Position numbers and translations under genes: made by a program. Positions 49,704 to 54,542 of a stretch of 64,000 nucleotides of DNA are shown in pieces. The DNA is from Gemmatimonadota bacterium (GTDB taxonomy: Bacteria; Gemmatimonadota; Gemmatimonadetes; Gemmatimonadales; GWC2-71-9). The notes below the pieces were generated by a model, which did no database searches, was not told the DNA's origin, and worked only from the letters and a program-made list of their open reading frames with translations. The DNA lies in NCBI GenBank assembly GCA_016874005.1, contig VGVQ01000008.1, forward strand, positions 62,001-126,000, given 5' to 3'. Every line of letters begins with the position of its first letter. The stretch's first letter is position 1.

Positions 49704-50777
49704 CTAGTCCGGCGCGGTCAAGTAGTCCATCATCGATCGACGGATCGTCCGATCCATCTGACCCGGGTCATTGCTCATCAGCACCCCCACCCGTCGGCGC
49801 GCCGGATCCATGAAGAAGAACGTCGCGATCCCGGGGAACCCGCCGGTGTGGCCCACCAGGGTCCGCCCCTTGGCCTCCATCACGATGAACCCGTAGCCAT
49901 AGCCGCCGCCGCGGTCGTCCGCCGTCTGCCGCGTCGTCATGGTCTTGACCGTCGCTGCACCGAGCACCTTCCCGCTGATCAGGGCCTCGGCCCATTTGAG
50001 CAGGTCCAGGGCGGTGGCCCACCCTCCGCCGGCTCCACCGCCTCTGACCGTGTGGGTGAAGAGGTTGTTCTTGACCGTGCCATCCTCGCCGCGATAGTAC
50101 CCCACCGCCAGGTTTGGCACATCGACGTCGAGCGGGAAAAACCCGGTGTTCACCATCCCCGCCGACTCGAACACCCGGCGCTCGAGGTATTGGAAGTAGT
50201 CCTCGCCAGATACCTTTTCGACTACCATCGCGAGAACTGCGAACCCGGTGTTGCTGTAGAACCACTTGCTCCCCGGTGCGAAGAGCAGGGTGTCATCGAC
50301 GAAATACGGGAGCAGGTCCCCGGTCGTTCGCACCGCGGTCCAGTTGCCATTGAAGAGGCGTTCCCAATAAAGGCCCATGCCTGACCGGTGGCTGAGGAGC
50401 TGCGCGATGGTCACCCGCCGGGCCAGCGCCTGGTTGGGGTAGTCGGGCAGCACCTTGGCCAAGGTATCGGTCCAGCGCAGTTTCCCCTGCTCCACCAACT
50501 GCCCGATCGCGACCGCCGTGAACGTCTTGCCGACCGAGGCGAGGTTGAACTTCGTGTCGAGCCGATTGTCGACCCGGTAGCCCTTGTGGGCCAACCCATG
50601 GGCGCTGTGATGAACGATCCTGCCGGAGTCCGCAATCAGCACGACGCCGTGAAAGCTCCCGGTTTGCCGGGCTTGGCCAAGAGCCGCGGTGAGCGAGTCG
50701 AGACTGGCCTGGCGCGATTGGCCGGTCAGGCTGCCAGCGGCGGTGACCGACAGGATCACCAGCGATGCGAAGCGCAC
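49704..50777 (-). CDS. Exported serine hydrolase, beta-lactamase class C/esterase family
   Basis: GTG 50777, preceded by GAGG, yields 357 residues with a clean signal peptide (MRFASLVILSVTAAGSLTGQ). ATG 50807 or 50822 would add 10-15 residues before it. Active-site motifs: SVGK near 80 (nucleophile Ser and Lys), YSN near 176 and HTGG near 310 in the KTG position. This family includes D-aminopeptidases, esterases and penicillin-binding-like proteins; no substrate can be assigned. It is the last gene behind the ECF-sigma/DUF4097 set, 86 bases after the second DUF4097 gene. Confidence 0.87.
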   Translation of the reverse strand: MRFASLVILSVTAAGSLTGQSRQASLDSLTAALGQARQTGSFHGVVLIADSGRIVHHSAHGLAHKGYRVDNRLDTKFNLASVGKTFTAVAIGQLVEQGKLRWTDTLAKVLPDYPNQALARRVTIAQLLSHRSGMGLYWERLFNGNWTAVRTTGDLLPYFVDDTLLFAPGSKWFYSNTGFAVLAMVVEKVSGEDYFQYLERRVFESAGMVNTGFFPLDVDVPNLAVGYYRGEDGTVKNNLFTHTVRGGGAGGGWATALDLLKWAEALISGKVLGAATVKTMTTRQTADDRGGGYGYGFIVMEAKGRTLVGHTGGFPGIATFFFMDPARRRVGVLMSNDPGQMDRTIRRSMMDYLTAPD

Positions 50778-50863
50778 GAGGACCTCGGGGCGGAATGGAC
50801 CAAGCATCGCTGGGCGCGACACCGACGGCCTCTACGCAAAATCCCGGACGGTGTTTCAGCGGG

Positions 50864-51754
50864 CTACTTCGCGACCCGAACCTCGATATCGCCGGAGAAC
50901 GACTCGAGATCGAGCTCGGCTCCCCCCTTGCCCCACGTCACGTTGAAACGATTGCGGTGCCGCCGCCGATTGTCCTTGCGGCCGATTGGCAGGTCGGACA
51001 CGAACCGACCGCTGAACGTCGACGCCGAGACCTCGGCATCCGGCTGACGTGGCAAGTTGAGCACCACGTCGCCGCTGAGGCTCTTGAAATCGTACCTGCC
51101 CCGCGGAGCGATCTCGCCACCGAAGGTCACGTCGCCGCTGACCGTCTCCGCCGACACCTCGGCCGAGGAGATCTGTCGCAACTCGACGTCGCCACTGACC
51201 GAGTTGGCATCCAGCCGCGACGACTGGACGTCGACCAACTCGACGTTCCCGGATACCGAGCCGAAATCGGCCCCCTCGGCGCGAATCGACTGCCCGAAGA
51301 CATCACCCGTCACCGTCTTGATATCGACCTCGAGGCCGGCGGGGAGACGGACCACGAAGCTGACCTCGGTGTCGTTGCGATCCCCTCGCCAGTTCAGGTC
51401 GCCCCGGTGGCAGGGATCGCGGTCCTGTCGACGGCTGTTCTCCCGCCGCCGCTCCGCCCGCCGGTCGCCGTCATCCCGGCGGGACCGCTGGCCGGGGTAG
51501 TAGACACAGATCGCCACGCCGCCGTCGGTGTCGACCGCCTCGATTTCGACGTCGTTCGGGTCGCCGTGACGCCCTTCCTTCTTGGTCGCCGTCACCTCGA
51601 CCCGTCGCCCGGTGGCCGCCTCGATCCGAACATCGCCGATGATGTTGCGGAGGTCGAAGGTGGCGCCGGAACGGAGTTCTCGGGTGAACTCGAACTCTTG
51701 CGCCGCGAGTGGGGCGGACCCCATGACCAGCAGGATGAGCGAATACGGTCTCAT
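50864..51754 (-). CDS. Exported DUF4097-family beta-repeat protein (second copy)
   Basis: A 296-residue exported protein (signal peptide to LAAQ-E at 19). From about 140 it is a ladder of strands with recurrent SGDV/SGNV turns (VTGDVFGQS, VSGNVELVD, VSGDVELRQ, VSGDVTFGG, LSGDVVLNL, FSGDIEVRV), typical of the DUF4097 putative adhesin fold. An insertion rich in Arg and Asp with two cysteines (about 95-125) interrupts the first part. Its ATG overlaps the stop of its paralogue. Function unknown; ladder proteins of this type accompany envelope-stress systems. Confidence 0.85.
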   Translation of the reverse strand: MRPYSLILLVMGSAPLAAQEFEFTRELRSGATFDLRNIIGDVRIEAATGRRVEVTATKKEGRHGDPNDVEIEAVDTDGGVAICVYYPGQRSRRDDGDRRAERRRENSRRQDRDPCHRGDLNWRGDRNDTEVSFVVRLPAGLEVDIKTVTGDVFGQSIRAEGADFGSVSGNVELVDVQSSRLDANSVSGDVELRQISSAEVSAETVSGDVTFGGEIAPRGRYDFKSLSGDVVLNLPRQPDAEVSASTFSGRFVSDLPIGRKDNRRRHRNRFNVTWGKGGAELDLESFSGDIEVRVAK

Positions 51755-52731
51755 CGGAGCAAGCCTCCCTGGAGATGGCCGTCGCGGTCGTCGTGGTCGT
51801 CCTCGTGGTCCCGATCGGGCCGCTGCTTCGACCGATTCCGTTTGTTGTCCTTCTGGGCTCGATCGGATCGCCGGGCCGAAAGCTCGCCCGGCCGAAGGAG
51901 ATCGACATCACCGTTGAAGGTCTCGATGTCGATGTTGGCACCGCCGTTGCCGAGCCGGAAGGTCTGCCGGCGGCGCCCGACCCGATCGGCTCGGGCGGCG
52001 AAGCTGCTCGAGACATTGCCGCCGGCCGACGCCACCGAGAGCGTGGCGTTGGCGCCTTCGGGAATGGCCACCGTCACGTCGCCGCTATGGGTGGACAAGG
52101 TGTAACTGCCGCCAGAAGCAATCTGGCCCTCGAAGACGATGTCGCCACTGACCGTCTGGACGTCGAGCGATCTGGCGTTGCTCCGGCGGACGTCGATGTC
52201 GCCACTGACCGACTCGAGGAGGATATCGCCATCCACGTTGGTCACCTCGATATCGTCGGAAATCGCGTTGACGGAGATCCGTCCACTCGCCCCAGTCAGT
52301 TCGACCCGGCCGTTCACGGTCGAAAGGCTGACGACGTCCGCCCCGCCGTCGACCACGATGTCGCCCTCCAGGGTCTCCGCCTTGATGCCGGCCTTGGTGC
52401 CCTTGACCGAGATCTCGGCGTACATCCCGCCCAGGTCGAGAGCCATCCAGCTTGGCACCGTCAGACGGTAGTCGACGATCCCGGGCAACCCGCGCCGGCT
52501 CCTGGTGGCCAACTCGAGGATCGATCCGCGACTCTCGACGTCGACGTAGCTGCGAGGGGAGTGACTCGCCTCGATCCGCAGCTGATCCCGATCCCAGGCG
52601 GTCACCGCGATCTCGCCGCCCTGGGTATGGACCTTGAGCCGAGTCCCCCGGGAGACGGCGATGGTCGTGTCGGTATCGAATTGGGCGCTCTGGATCGCCG
52701 CCACCGCGGCCAGCGCCAACAGTCCGGTCAT
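51751..52731 (-). CDS. Exported DUF4097-family beta-repeat protein (first copy)
   Basis: A 326-residue exported protein from ATG 52731. Repeats every 18-22 residues show the same turn (EGDIVVDGG, DGDILLESV, SGDIDVRRS, SGDIVFEGQ, SGDVTVAIP, NGDVDLLRP). The C-terminal 45 residues are extremely charged (Arg, Asp, His, Lys: RPDRDHEDDHDDRDGH), a feature the paralogue has internally. It follows the anti-sigma gene by 16 bases. Probably periplasmic or surface-exposed. Confidence 0.85.
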   Translation of the reverse strand: MTGLLALAAVAAIQSAQFDTDTTIAVSRGTRLKVHTQGGEIAVTAWDRDQLRIEASHSPRSYVDVESRGSILELATRSRRGLPGIVDYRLTVPSWMALDLGGMYAEISVKGTKAGIKAETLEGDIVVDGGADVVSLSTVNGRVELTGASGRISVNAISDDIEVTNVDGDILLESVSGDIDVRRSNARSLDVQTVSGDIVFEGQIASGGSYTLSTHSGDVTVAIPEGANATLSVASAGGNVSSSFAARADRVGRRRQTFRLGNGGANIDIETFNGDVDLLRPGELSARRSDRAQKDNKRNRSKQRPDRDHEDDHDDRDGHLQGGLLR

Positions 52732-52747
52732 GTCCCCTGCCTTATCG

Positions 52748-53398
52748 TTAGGTCTCGGCAGCGAGCGCCCGAGTGGCGCGCTGCAGCACCGCGGCCTTCT
52801 TTCGCAGATTGATCGCGATCTGATTGTTGAGATACCGGTTGGCCGAATCTCGTTGGATCGCGACTCGCGCCTCCGCGACCGCCCGGTCGATGGTCGCGAG
52901 ACTTTCCTCGAGAACGCGGACCGTGGCGGTGTCGAGCTTGTGACGATTCGCCGCCAAGGCCGCTTCGAGCTCGGCGATCGCGGCATCCACCTTGGGCGAG
53001 GTGCCAGTCAGCCCGACCAAGGCGGCGTCGACCGGCGGGGTGTCGATCGCCACGACCGGGGCCTCGCGGGTCGTCCACCAGACCAGTCCACCGCCAGCCG
53101 CCCCGGCGAGAAGGACCCCGGCAGCCACCAATCCGATCGGCCAGCGGCGCGCGGGCCGGGCCACCGGGAAGGTCACCACTTTGTCGGCGTCGATCGTCGC
53201 GGCAATCGCCCGCCACACGCCCTCTCCGGGGGGATCGCCGAGGTAGCGGGGAGCCGCGGCCACAATCGCCGCAAGATCGTCCCGGACCTCCCGACACGAG
53301 GCGCACTCGTCGAGGTGGCGCTCCAGCCGGCGAGCAGTGACCGGATCCAGTTCACCATCGAGGTAGCTCGAAAGAAGATCGGTCCATTCGGGGTGCAT
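52748..53398 (-). CDS. Zinc-finger anti-sigma factor (membrane-anchored)
   Basis: A 216-residue protein. ATG 53398 is preceded by an almost ideal AAGGAGG eight bases away. The N-terminal domain has HLDECASC, the HxxxCxxC zinc motif of ZAS anti-sigma factors. One membrane helix (WPIGLVAAGVLLAGAAGGGLVWW) lies at about 88-110, and the periplasmic part is a long helical region. It would hold the adjacent ECF sigma factor inactive until an envelope signal arrives. Confidence 0.88.
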   Translation of the reverse strand: MHPEWTDLLSSYLDGELDPVTARRLERHLDECASCREVRDDLAAIVAAAPRYLGDPPGEGVWRAIAATIDADKVVTFPVARPARRWPIGLVAAGVLLAGAAGGGLVWWTTREAPVVAIDTPPVDAALVGLTGTSPKVDAAIAELEAALAANRHKLDTATVRVLEESLATIDRAVAEARVAIQRDSANRYLNNQIAINLRKKAAVLQRATRALAAET

Positions 53399-53411
53399 CG
53401 TCACAGCCTCC

Positions 53412-53960
53412 TTACGCCAACGACTTCCGCAACATCATCCGGGCCCGGTGGAGCTGCGACCGCGAGGTGCCCGGGTCGACGCCGAGCAGCTCGGCGATCT
53501 CGTCGTGCTTGTAGCCTTCCATATCGTGAAGGACGAAGACCTCGCGGGCGCCGGCCGGGAGCAGCCCGACCGCCCGCTCGAGCGCAACCCGAAGCTCCGG
53601 TCGCTCCGCCCGCGCGGGCACCGCCGAGGCGAGGTCGTCCGCCCCACCAAATCGGCTGGCATCCCGCCCCCGTTCCTGCCGGCGCCGGAGATACAAATTC
53701 ACCGCGACCCGATGGAGCCAGGTCGAGAAGGCGCTTTGGCCGTTGAAAGTCGACAACTTCTGCCAGACCCGAACGAACAGGTCCTGCACCGCGTCGTCGC
53801 AGTCGTCGGTGCCAAGGAGCCAACGCGCCAGGCCATGAACCCGGGCGACGTGCCGTCGATAGAGACGCTCGAAGGCCGCGGGGTCTCCCGCCACCGCCAG
53901 CCGAACATCCGCGTAGTCGCTATCCCGCGGCTCGATGGGGTGCGTCGTCTCTATCGGCAC
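53412..53960 (-). CDS. ECF RNA polymerase sigma factor
   Basis: A 182-residue RpoE-type factor from GTG 53960 (TTG 53975 is an alternative close to AAGAGG). Region 2 spans AFERLYRRHVARVHGLARWLLG and AVQDLFVRVWQKLSTFNGQSAFSTWLHRVAVNLY; region 4 has LPAGAREVFVLHDMEGYKHDEIAELLGVDPGTSRSQLHRARMML in pattern. First gene of the operon sigma/anti-sigma/DUF4097/DUF4097. It is likely to drive its own operon, but I could not identify a matching pair of promoter motifs. Confidence 0.9.
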   Translation of the reverse strand: MPIETTHPIEPRDSDYADVRLAVAGDPAAFERLYRRHVARVHGLARWLLGTDDCDDAVQDLFVRVWQKLSTFNGQSAFSTWLHRVAVNLYLRRRQERGRDASRFGGADDLASAVPARAERPELRVALERAVGLLPAGAREVFVLHDMEGYKHDEIAELLGVDPGTSRSQLHRARMMLRKSLA

Positions 53961-54059
53961 CGGCAAAGCGGCCAAACCTCTTGAACTCGGGTTGCGATCG
54001 GCAGATTGGATACGGGACGAGCCGCGCGCGTTGCAGCCGACTGGCGGGCCCCTTTGATA

Positions 54060-54076
54060 GATATCATAATGATATC
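54060..54076. promoter_or_regulatory. AT-rich palindrome GATATCAT-A-ATGATATC upstream of the plug-domain gene
   Basis: Exact eight-base arms around one central A, in a 177-base divergent gap between the ECF sigma gene and the plug-domain gene. Low GC marks it against its surroundings, as does the marR operator. It lies 62-78 bases before ATG 54138. A dimeric regulator or an overlapping -10 element (CATAATGAT) are both possible. Confidence 0.6.
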
Positions 54077-54137
54077 AGCCCTCACCGCCCCGGACTTCAC
54101 TAAGATTCCTCTGTTCCCTCGTGGCTGGAGGTCTCCA

Positions 54138-54542
54138 ATGCGGTGGTTCCTGTCGTTGGTGTTGTTGGTCGGGTTTGCCGTTCCAGTGGTGGGCCAGGAC
54201 AGCGTCAAGACCAAGAAGAGAAAGCGCGATCCCAACGTCATCACGCTGGAAGAGATTGACGCCATCCGGTCCGAGCTTTCGAACGCGTACGAAATCGTGA
54301 GCCGGCTCCGCCCCCAATATCTCCGGGGTCGGGGGTCGAACTCGTTCGGCAATGCCCGGGGTGGCAAGGCGGTTCCCCTGGCCAAGATCGTGGTGGACGG
54401 GAGCCCGTACGGGGAGGTGACCTCCCTCAACCAGATCTCGGCCATGATGGTCCGAGAGATCCGGTATCTGGGCTCCGGCGACGCCAGCATCAAATACGGA
54501 ACCGGGTACGACGGCGGCGCGATTCTGGTTTCGACGCGCTAG
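54138..54542 (+). CDS. Small exported protein with a TonB-receptor-plug-like domain
   Basis: A 134-residue exported protein. ATG 54138 follows GGAGG; the signal peptide is MRWFLSLVLLVGFAVPVVG-Q. After a basic stretch (KTKKRKRD) comes a short domain: TLEEIDAIRSELSNAYEIVSRLRPQYLRGRG, KIVVDGSPYGEVTSLNQISAMMVREIRYLGSGDASIKYGTG, GGAILVSTR. This is the pattern of the plug of TonB-dependent receptors (an R-P-..VDG..G....L..I....V..IE.L.g..A...YG..  rhythm) without any barrel. Role unknown. Confidence 0.78.
   Translation: MRWFLSLVLLVGFAVPVVGQDSVKTKKRKRDPNVITLEEIDAIRSELSNAYEIVSRLRPQYLRGRGSNSFGNARGGKAVPLAKIVVDGSPYGEVTSLNQISAMMVREIRYLGSGDASIKYGTGYDGGAILVSTR

Follow-up and report, generated by a model that had tools for sequence, protein, structure and literature searches.

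A conserved ECF sigma factor/anti-sigma factor operon with two exported Toastrack proteins in Gemmatimonadota, a probable autoregulated envelope-stress module

Introduction

Pairs of an ECF sigma factor and an anti-sigma factor are known, and so are Toastrack (DUF4097) proteins, which are widespread and have an unknown function. In the sigma-E pathway the periplasmic protein RseB, which is not a Toastrack, is encoded together with the sigma factor and the anti-sigma factor. Toastrack-type domains have been connected with other regulators of envelope stress. The loss of LiaX or of its C-terminus activates LiaFSR, and the LiaX C-terminus restrains signalling (PMC11601895). A 2024 survey of Toastracks and PSP contexts argued for an intracellular placement of the domain and, in a DUF2089 context, noted its link to a sigma factor encoded in the operon (PMC11237479).

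Here, a locus was analyzed that lies in a 64,000-nucleotide stretch of DNA (the window) from a Gemmatimonadota bacterium. The source genome is a metagenome-assembled genome (MAG) of 3.88 Mb, and the analysis is sequence inference from MAGs. Like the pairs RsiW-SigW and RslA-SigL, the locus has a two-domain sigma factor, an anti-sigma factor with an Hx3Cx2C motif and one transmembrane helix, the same operon order and a CAAC-type autoregulated promoter, which is a prediction in the present case. In contrast to these pairs, the periplasmic domain of the anti-sigma factor is helical and had no confident fold match, and two exported Toastracks are added. This combination of an ECF/anti-sigma pair, exported Toastracks and a predicted regulon was not found in the searchable literature; the module may already be listed in ECF classification tables.

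Results

Layout of the locus

Four genes, called the quartet in the following, lie on the minus strand in the order sigma factor (53412-53975), anti-sigma factor (52748-53404), DUF4097-A (51751-52731) and DUF4097-B (50864-51754). The gaps between them are only 7, 16 and -4 bp (a 4-bp overlap), and thus co-transcription of all four genes is plausible. A gene for a serine hydrolase of the beta-lactamase family (49704-50822, minus strand; PF00144, E=1.4e-64) follows 41 bp behind DUF4097-B. On the plus strand, a divergent gene (54138-54542) encodes an exported protein that resembles a TonB plug without a barrel. Upstream of the sigma factor gene lie a candidate ECF-type autoregulatory promoter, GCAACGCGC-N12-GTATCCAATC (54004-54034, minus strand), detected by matrix and pattern search, and the palindrome GATATCATAATGATATC (GATATCAT-A-ATGATATC; 54060-54076), which was aligned to SPFH promoter regions. 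An earlier note on this DNA had named the sigma factor, the zinc anti-sigma factor, two DUF4097 proteins, the hydrolase, the divergent plug protein and the palindrome, and all of them were confirmed. The interval it had assigned to the locus, 50864-54542, holds the quartet and the plug gene, but the hydrolase gene falls outside.

The sigma factor and the anti-sigma factor

The sigma factor is the first gene product of the conserved operon. It has 187 aa, with an uncertain start codon (53960-53975), and regions 2 and 4 only (Pfam Sigma70_r2, E=2.4e-15; r4_2, E=2.2e-17; NCBIfam TIGR02937), and its size is that of an ECF sigma factor. The motif HLDECASC of the membrane-anchored anti-sigma factor is an Hx3Cx2C motif, and H30, C34 and C37 were invariant among the orthologues. 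Together with the zf-HC2 domain (E=1.6e-13) and the gene position next to the sigma factor, this places the protein among the class I (zinc) anti-sigma factors. One transmembrane helix is located near residues 90-108. The C-terminal periplasmic domain comprises three helices and is conserved at least as well as the zinc domain; the pLDDT of the model was about 91-95 across most of residues 140-210. A fold search with the model gave no confident match, and the weak ones were mostly known anti-sigma domains. The protein also matched the solved anti-sigma factors DdvA, RslA and RsiW, weakly. FecR-type cell-surface signalling does not apply, because Pfam revealed neither a FecR domain in the anti-sigma factor nor an STN domain in the plug protein.

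The two DUF4097 proteins

Both DUF4097 proteins scored far above the curated PF13349 cut-off of 22.9 bits, i.e., DUF4097-A with 69 bits (E=5.4e-19) and DUF4097-B with 69.6 bits (E=3.4e-19). The former contains SGD repeats. In profile searches, neither protein had a significant match to a solved relative. An N-terminal hydrophobic segment was present in 25 of 26 orthologues of DUF4097-A and in 23 of 25 orthologues of DUF4097-B, and no transmembrane stretch followed it in the orthologues examined of either protein. These predicted export signals agree with the placement outside the cytoplasm that had been suggested before. In addition, the cysteines C83 and C115 of DUF4097-B were invariant in 25/25 orthologues, and this invariant pair fits a periplasmic location, as it would be expected in the oxidising periplasm. 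The predicted export differs from the intracellular placement of Toastracks argued in the survey cited above (PMC11237479). Charged tails had also been ascribed to the pair. DUF4097-A indeed has a charged C-terminal tail, which occurs only in the genus and a few near genera, but in DUF4097-B the charged stretch lies inside the protein, as a loop flanked by the two invariant cysteines.

In one relative, the anti-sigma factor and DUF4097-A are found in one open frame (L291, 2-1540). The signal peptide is kept inside, and therefore a stop codon was probably lost in the MAG, while a true fusion is possible; the fusion was not used as evidence.

The pair does not belong to the Lia equivalog families. 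The scores were 56 and 43.4 bits versus an NCBIfam cut-off of 285 for LiaG, and 23.4 and 36.9 bits versus a cut-off of 350 for LiaX. DUF4097-A matched LiaX within its C-terminal region, below the family cut-off. The domain itself is shared with the Toastracks of PSP contexts, but here the proteins are stand-alone, carry export signals and have a zf-HC2 anti-sigma factor as neighbour; PspA or PspC was not recognised among the neighbour families inspected at the locus.

Conservation of the quartet

For the comparison, 41 related genomes were searched with the DUF4097-A protein, and the genes around the matches were called with a simple codon-usage script. About 30 of the 41 relatives, ranging from the genus to the order, had the quartet with its gene order unchanged. 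In several of the remaining ones the locus was cut by contig ends or DUF4097-B was missing. The genes flanking the quartet varied between genera. Of 150 genomes taken from the phylum, 141 were matched by an anti-sigma factor profile; fewer of these matches were strong and full-length, and the weaker ones may represent other anti-sigma factors. At least the sigma factor, the anti-sigma factor and a DUF4097 gene were also present in MAGs of Acidobacteria and Eisenbacteria. The gene comparisons thus support a conserved module of the sigma factor, the anti-sigma factor and both DUF4097 genes. Its carriers form a family of soil and water bacteria, most of which are uncultured.

The plug protein, the hydrolase and the palindrome

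The plug protein has 134 aa. It had no match to the Pfam Plug family, and Pfam did not reveal a signalling domain, but the best match of its AlphaFold model was the plug of FepA (E=8.7e-4, probability 1.00), followed by CirA, FoxA, FhuA and PirA. By fold, it thus has the plug domain of TonB-dependent transporters; the protein ends after this domain and lacks their 22-strand barrel. Outside the genus, the plug gene was found in synteny in a single near genus, and it stays with its far-side genes. The hydrolase was found at this position in none of the compared relatives, in which DUF4097-B is followed by other genes, e.g., PadR and a MacB/FtsX-type permease, or an alcohol dehydrogenase. Serine hydrolase homologues do occur behind the candidate promoter in other genomes. 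The earlier note had regarded the six genes as one combined locus whose conservation should be checked. Conservation was seen for the quartet, but did not extend to the narrowly distributed plug gene and the hydrolase gene, and the combined locus is therefore not borne out. Synteny led to the rejection of both as core parts; judged from it, they are local additions to the module.

The 13-bp core of the palindrome, with at most one mismatch allowed, is unique in the genome. In the genus and in near genera the divergent neighbour of the sigma factor is an SPFH/Band-7 gene, which in the genome under study sits on another contig (L179, C4, 6585-7450). The SPFH promoter region contains TTGACA-N16-17-TATCAT with TATC/GATA repeats, and the relocated copy carries the same elements. 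The promoter regions of nine SPFH orthologues could be aligned with the palindrome, and the relocated copy also has this region. The palindrome is therefore best interpreted as what is left of the sigma-70-type promoter/repeat region of the SPFH/Band-7 gene. A function as ECF promoter or operator, or as operator of the plug gene, was rejected, as the match is to a sigma-70-type region. Two further observations concern the SPFH gene. Its sigma-70-type promoter within TATC/GATA repeats travels with the gene (L179; relatives L035-L041 and L180), and the gene is followed in some relatives by a small one of ribbon-helix-helix-like type, which could be an SPFH regulator.

The candidate ECF promoter

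The motif CAAC-N18-ATCCAA is located at 54033-54006, upstream of the sigma factor gene, and was also recovered by pattern. The upstream regions of the sigma factor outside of the genus share CAAC-N18-(A/G)TCCAA, and the candidate promoter was found in 30 of 31 such regions. In the sole exception the start had been mis-called and the site lies just inside the gene. A promoter matrix was trained solely on loci outside of the genus, so that the window site was held out. With this matrix, the window site (54034-54004) ranked first of 128,000 positions (128 kb) and was the only one with a score of at least 14 at standard spacing, while the best score in shuffled upstream regions was 13.1. The family pattern had 99 matches in 61 genomes versus 5 with a reversed-pattern control. 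For a variant pattern of the sister family the numbers were 15 versus 1, and many of the 15 were at sigma factor operons. The conserved upstream motif and the search with the held-out matrix speak for an autoregulated promoter of the ECF type, and the operon appears to be autoregulated from its own promoter. The earlier note had proposed to look for a shared ECF promoter motif before the operon and elsewhere, and candidate sites were present at both.

Predicted targets and a paralogous locus

Of the first-inspected sites with the promoter pattern, 55/60 were intergenic. The first gene within 300 bp was classified for 76 sites, which lay mostly away from known sigma factor loci and one of which was counted twice; target families were named by Pfam scans of representatives. 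The first gene encoded a sigma factor in 17 cases, a DUF4097 protein in 11, a DUF5916 protein in 9, a MacB/FtsX permease in 8 and a kinase in 5. HEAT and PadR proteins accounted for 4 each, an unnamed family and serine hydrolases for 3 each and others for 8, and 4 sites had no gene close by. Some of the MacB/FtsX permeases were accompanied by PadR. The predicted targets are thus envelope-related, with permeases and DUF4097 proteins among the first genes, which speaks for the link to envelope stress proposed earlier. A related site was found 25-56 bp upstream of lytic-transglycosylase operons in 8/8 orthologues. Directly behind an ECF-like promoter, an exported family of about 320-350 aa was observed in three genomes (L214, L215, L260), and the one member scanned had no Pfam match.

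The own genome contains three further loci of this kind. In C7 (L177, 2605-5152) an ECF-like promoter precedes a gene for a 61-aa protein without known family and a lytic transglycosylase gene; this is the site kept in the 8/8 orthologues. In C13 (L178, 5700-8283) the promoter lies 85 bp upstream of a MacB/FtsX-type permease gene. C14 (L105, 9263-11354) harbours a paralogous sigma/anti-sigma/DUF4097 locus, which has a similar promoter of its own and is followed by a gene for a 161-aa exported protein. One member of the genus, G004, is devoid of the DUF4097 quartet and keeps the paralogous sigma factor and the lytic-transglycosylase promoter, and therefore some of the targets may belong to the paralogous sigma factor.

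Discussion

The quartet is likely to be a conserved ECF module for envelope stress that regulates itself, and in it the exported Toastracks would act as periplasmic co-sensors or in negative feedback. The conservation of the operon, the export signals, the anatomy of the anti-sigma factor, the conservation of the promoter and its presence at other envelope genes were all seen at the sequence level. We infer that this sigma factor reads the CAAC-N18-ATCCAA promoter, and the nature of the signal and a contact of the Toastracks with the anti-sigma factor are inferred likewise. In the resting state, the membrane-bound anti-sigma factor would hold the sigma factor via its cytoplasmic zf-HC2 domain. 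An envelope signal or damage would reach its periplasmic helical domain, and the sigma factor would be freed. It would then transcribe its own operon and, as its regulon, genes for exported and membrane proteins. The Toastracks, exported from the same operon, would most likely reside beside the anti-sigma factor in the periplasm, in a role modelled on RseB or on the C-terminal domain of LiaX. Similar to the RseA/RseB case, a periplasmic protein encoded alongside could bind the periplasmic part of the anti-sigma factor, an analogy that claims no sequence relation. Similar to LiaX/LiaG and LiaFSR, an exported or surface DUF4097-type domain is linked to an envelope-stress regulator, but LiaFSR is a two-component system, in contrast to the ECF/anti-sigma pair found here.

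A more specific proposal, put forward tentatively, is that the exported pair may serve an ECF sigma factor as its periplasmic arm for sensing and feedback, with this sigma factor controlling an envelope regulon across a mostly uncultured family. The predicted regulon would comprise the operon itself, lone Toastracks, MacB/FtsX permeases with PadR, DUF5916 proteins and the lytic transglycosylase. A signal modulation by the Toastracks at the anti-sigma factor is suggested by the fixed gene order, the co-localisation and the LiaX precedent. However, the same promoter also directly precedes lone DUF4097 genes that have no sigma or anti-sigma factor gene next to them, as would be expected of effectors, and thus the Toastracks could equally be outputs. 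They would then only be an exported stress scaffold or shield, and the anti-sigma factor alone would sense via its periplasmic helices, the good conservation of which is in line with this idea. Such a role is possible but somewhat doubtful, since the LiaX precedent (PMC11601895) counts against it and two distinct orthologous Toastrack lines, A and B, remain coupled to the sigma and anti-sigma factor genes throughout the order, as would rather be expected of a regulatory partner.

It is rather unlikely that transcription from the promoter depends mainly on the paralogous sigma factor of C14, or on both sigma factors equally, so that the wider regulon would not be that of this module alone. The similar promoter of the paralogous locus and the genes retained in G004 point in this direction, and so does a slight difference at the -10 end, which is TATCCAA at this module and GCATC at the transglycosylase operon. 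The paralogous sigma factor may share promoters, judged from these sites. However, the motif was learned from the promoters of this very module and holds at nearly all such loci, and only sigma factor genes were more frequent among the first genes than lone DUF4097 genes. Very improbable is a single functional module of six genes, e.g., with the plug protein signalling to the anti-sigma factor. The plug fold was confirmed, the hydrolase gene lies close behind DUF4097-B, and elsewhere the promoter repeatedly precedes serine hydrolase genes. Yet the plug gene is tied to its far-side genes within a narrow range, the hydrolase is missing there in the relatives, and neither a barrel or signalling domain in the plug protein nor a FecR domain in the anti-sigma factor is available for such a pathway.

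Taken together, the tie to an anti-sigma factor, the export signals and a readable promoter give the Toastracks of a conserved module a testable job. If true, the proposed sensor and feedback arm would be a use of the fold for which the searched literature contains no description. From the promoter, an ECF regulon can also be predicted for a mostly uncultured group of bacteria, and this prediction links DUF5916 proteins, MacB-like permeases with PadR and HEAT proteins to one envelope response.
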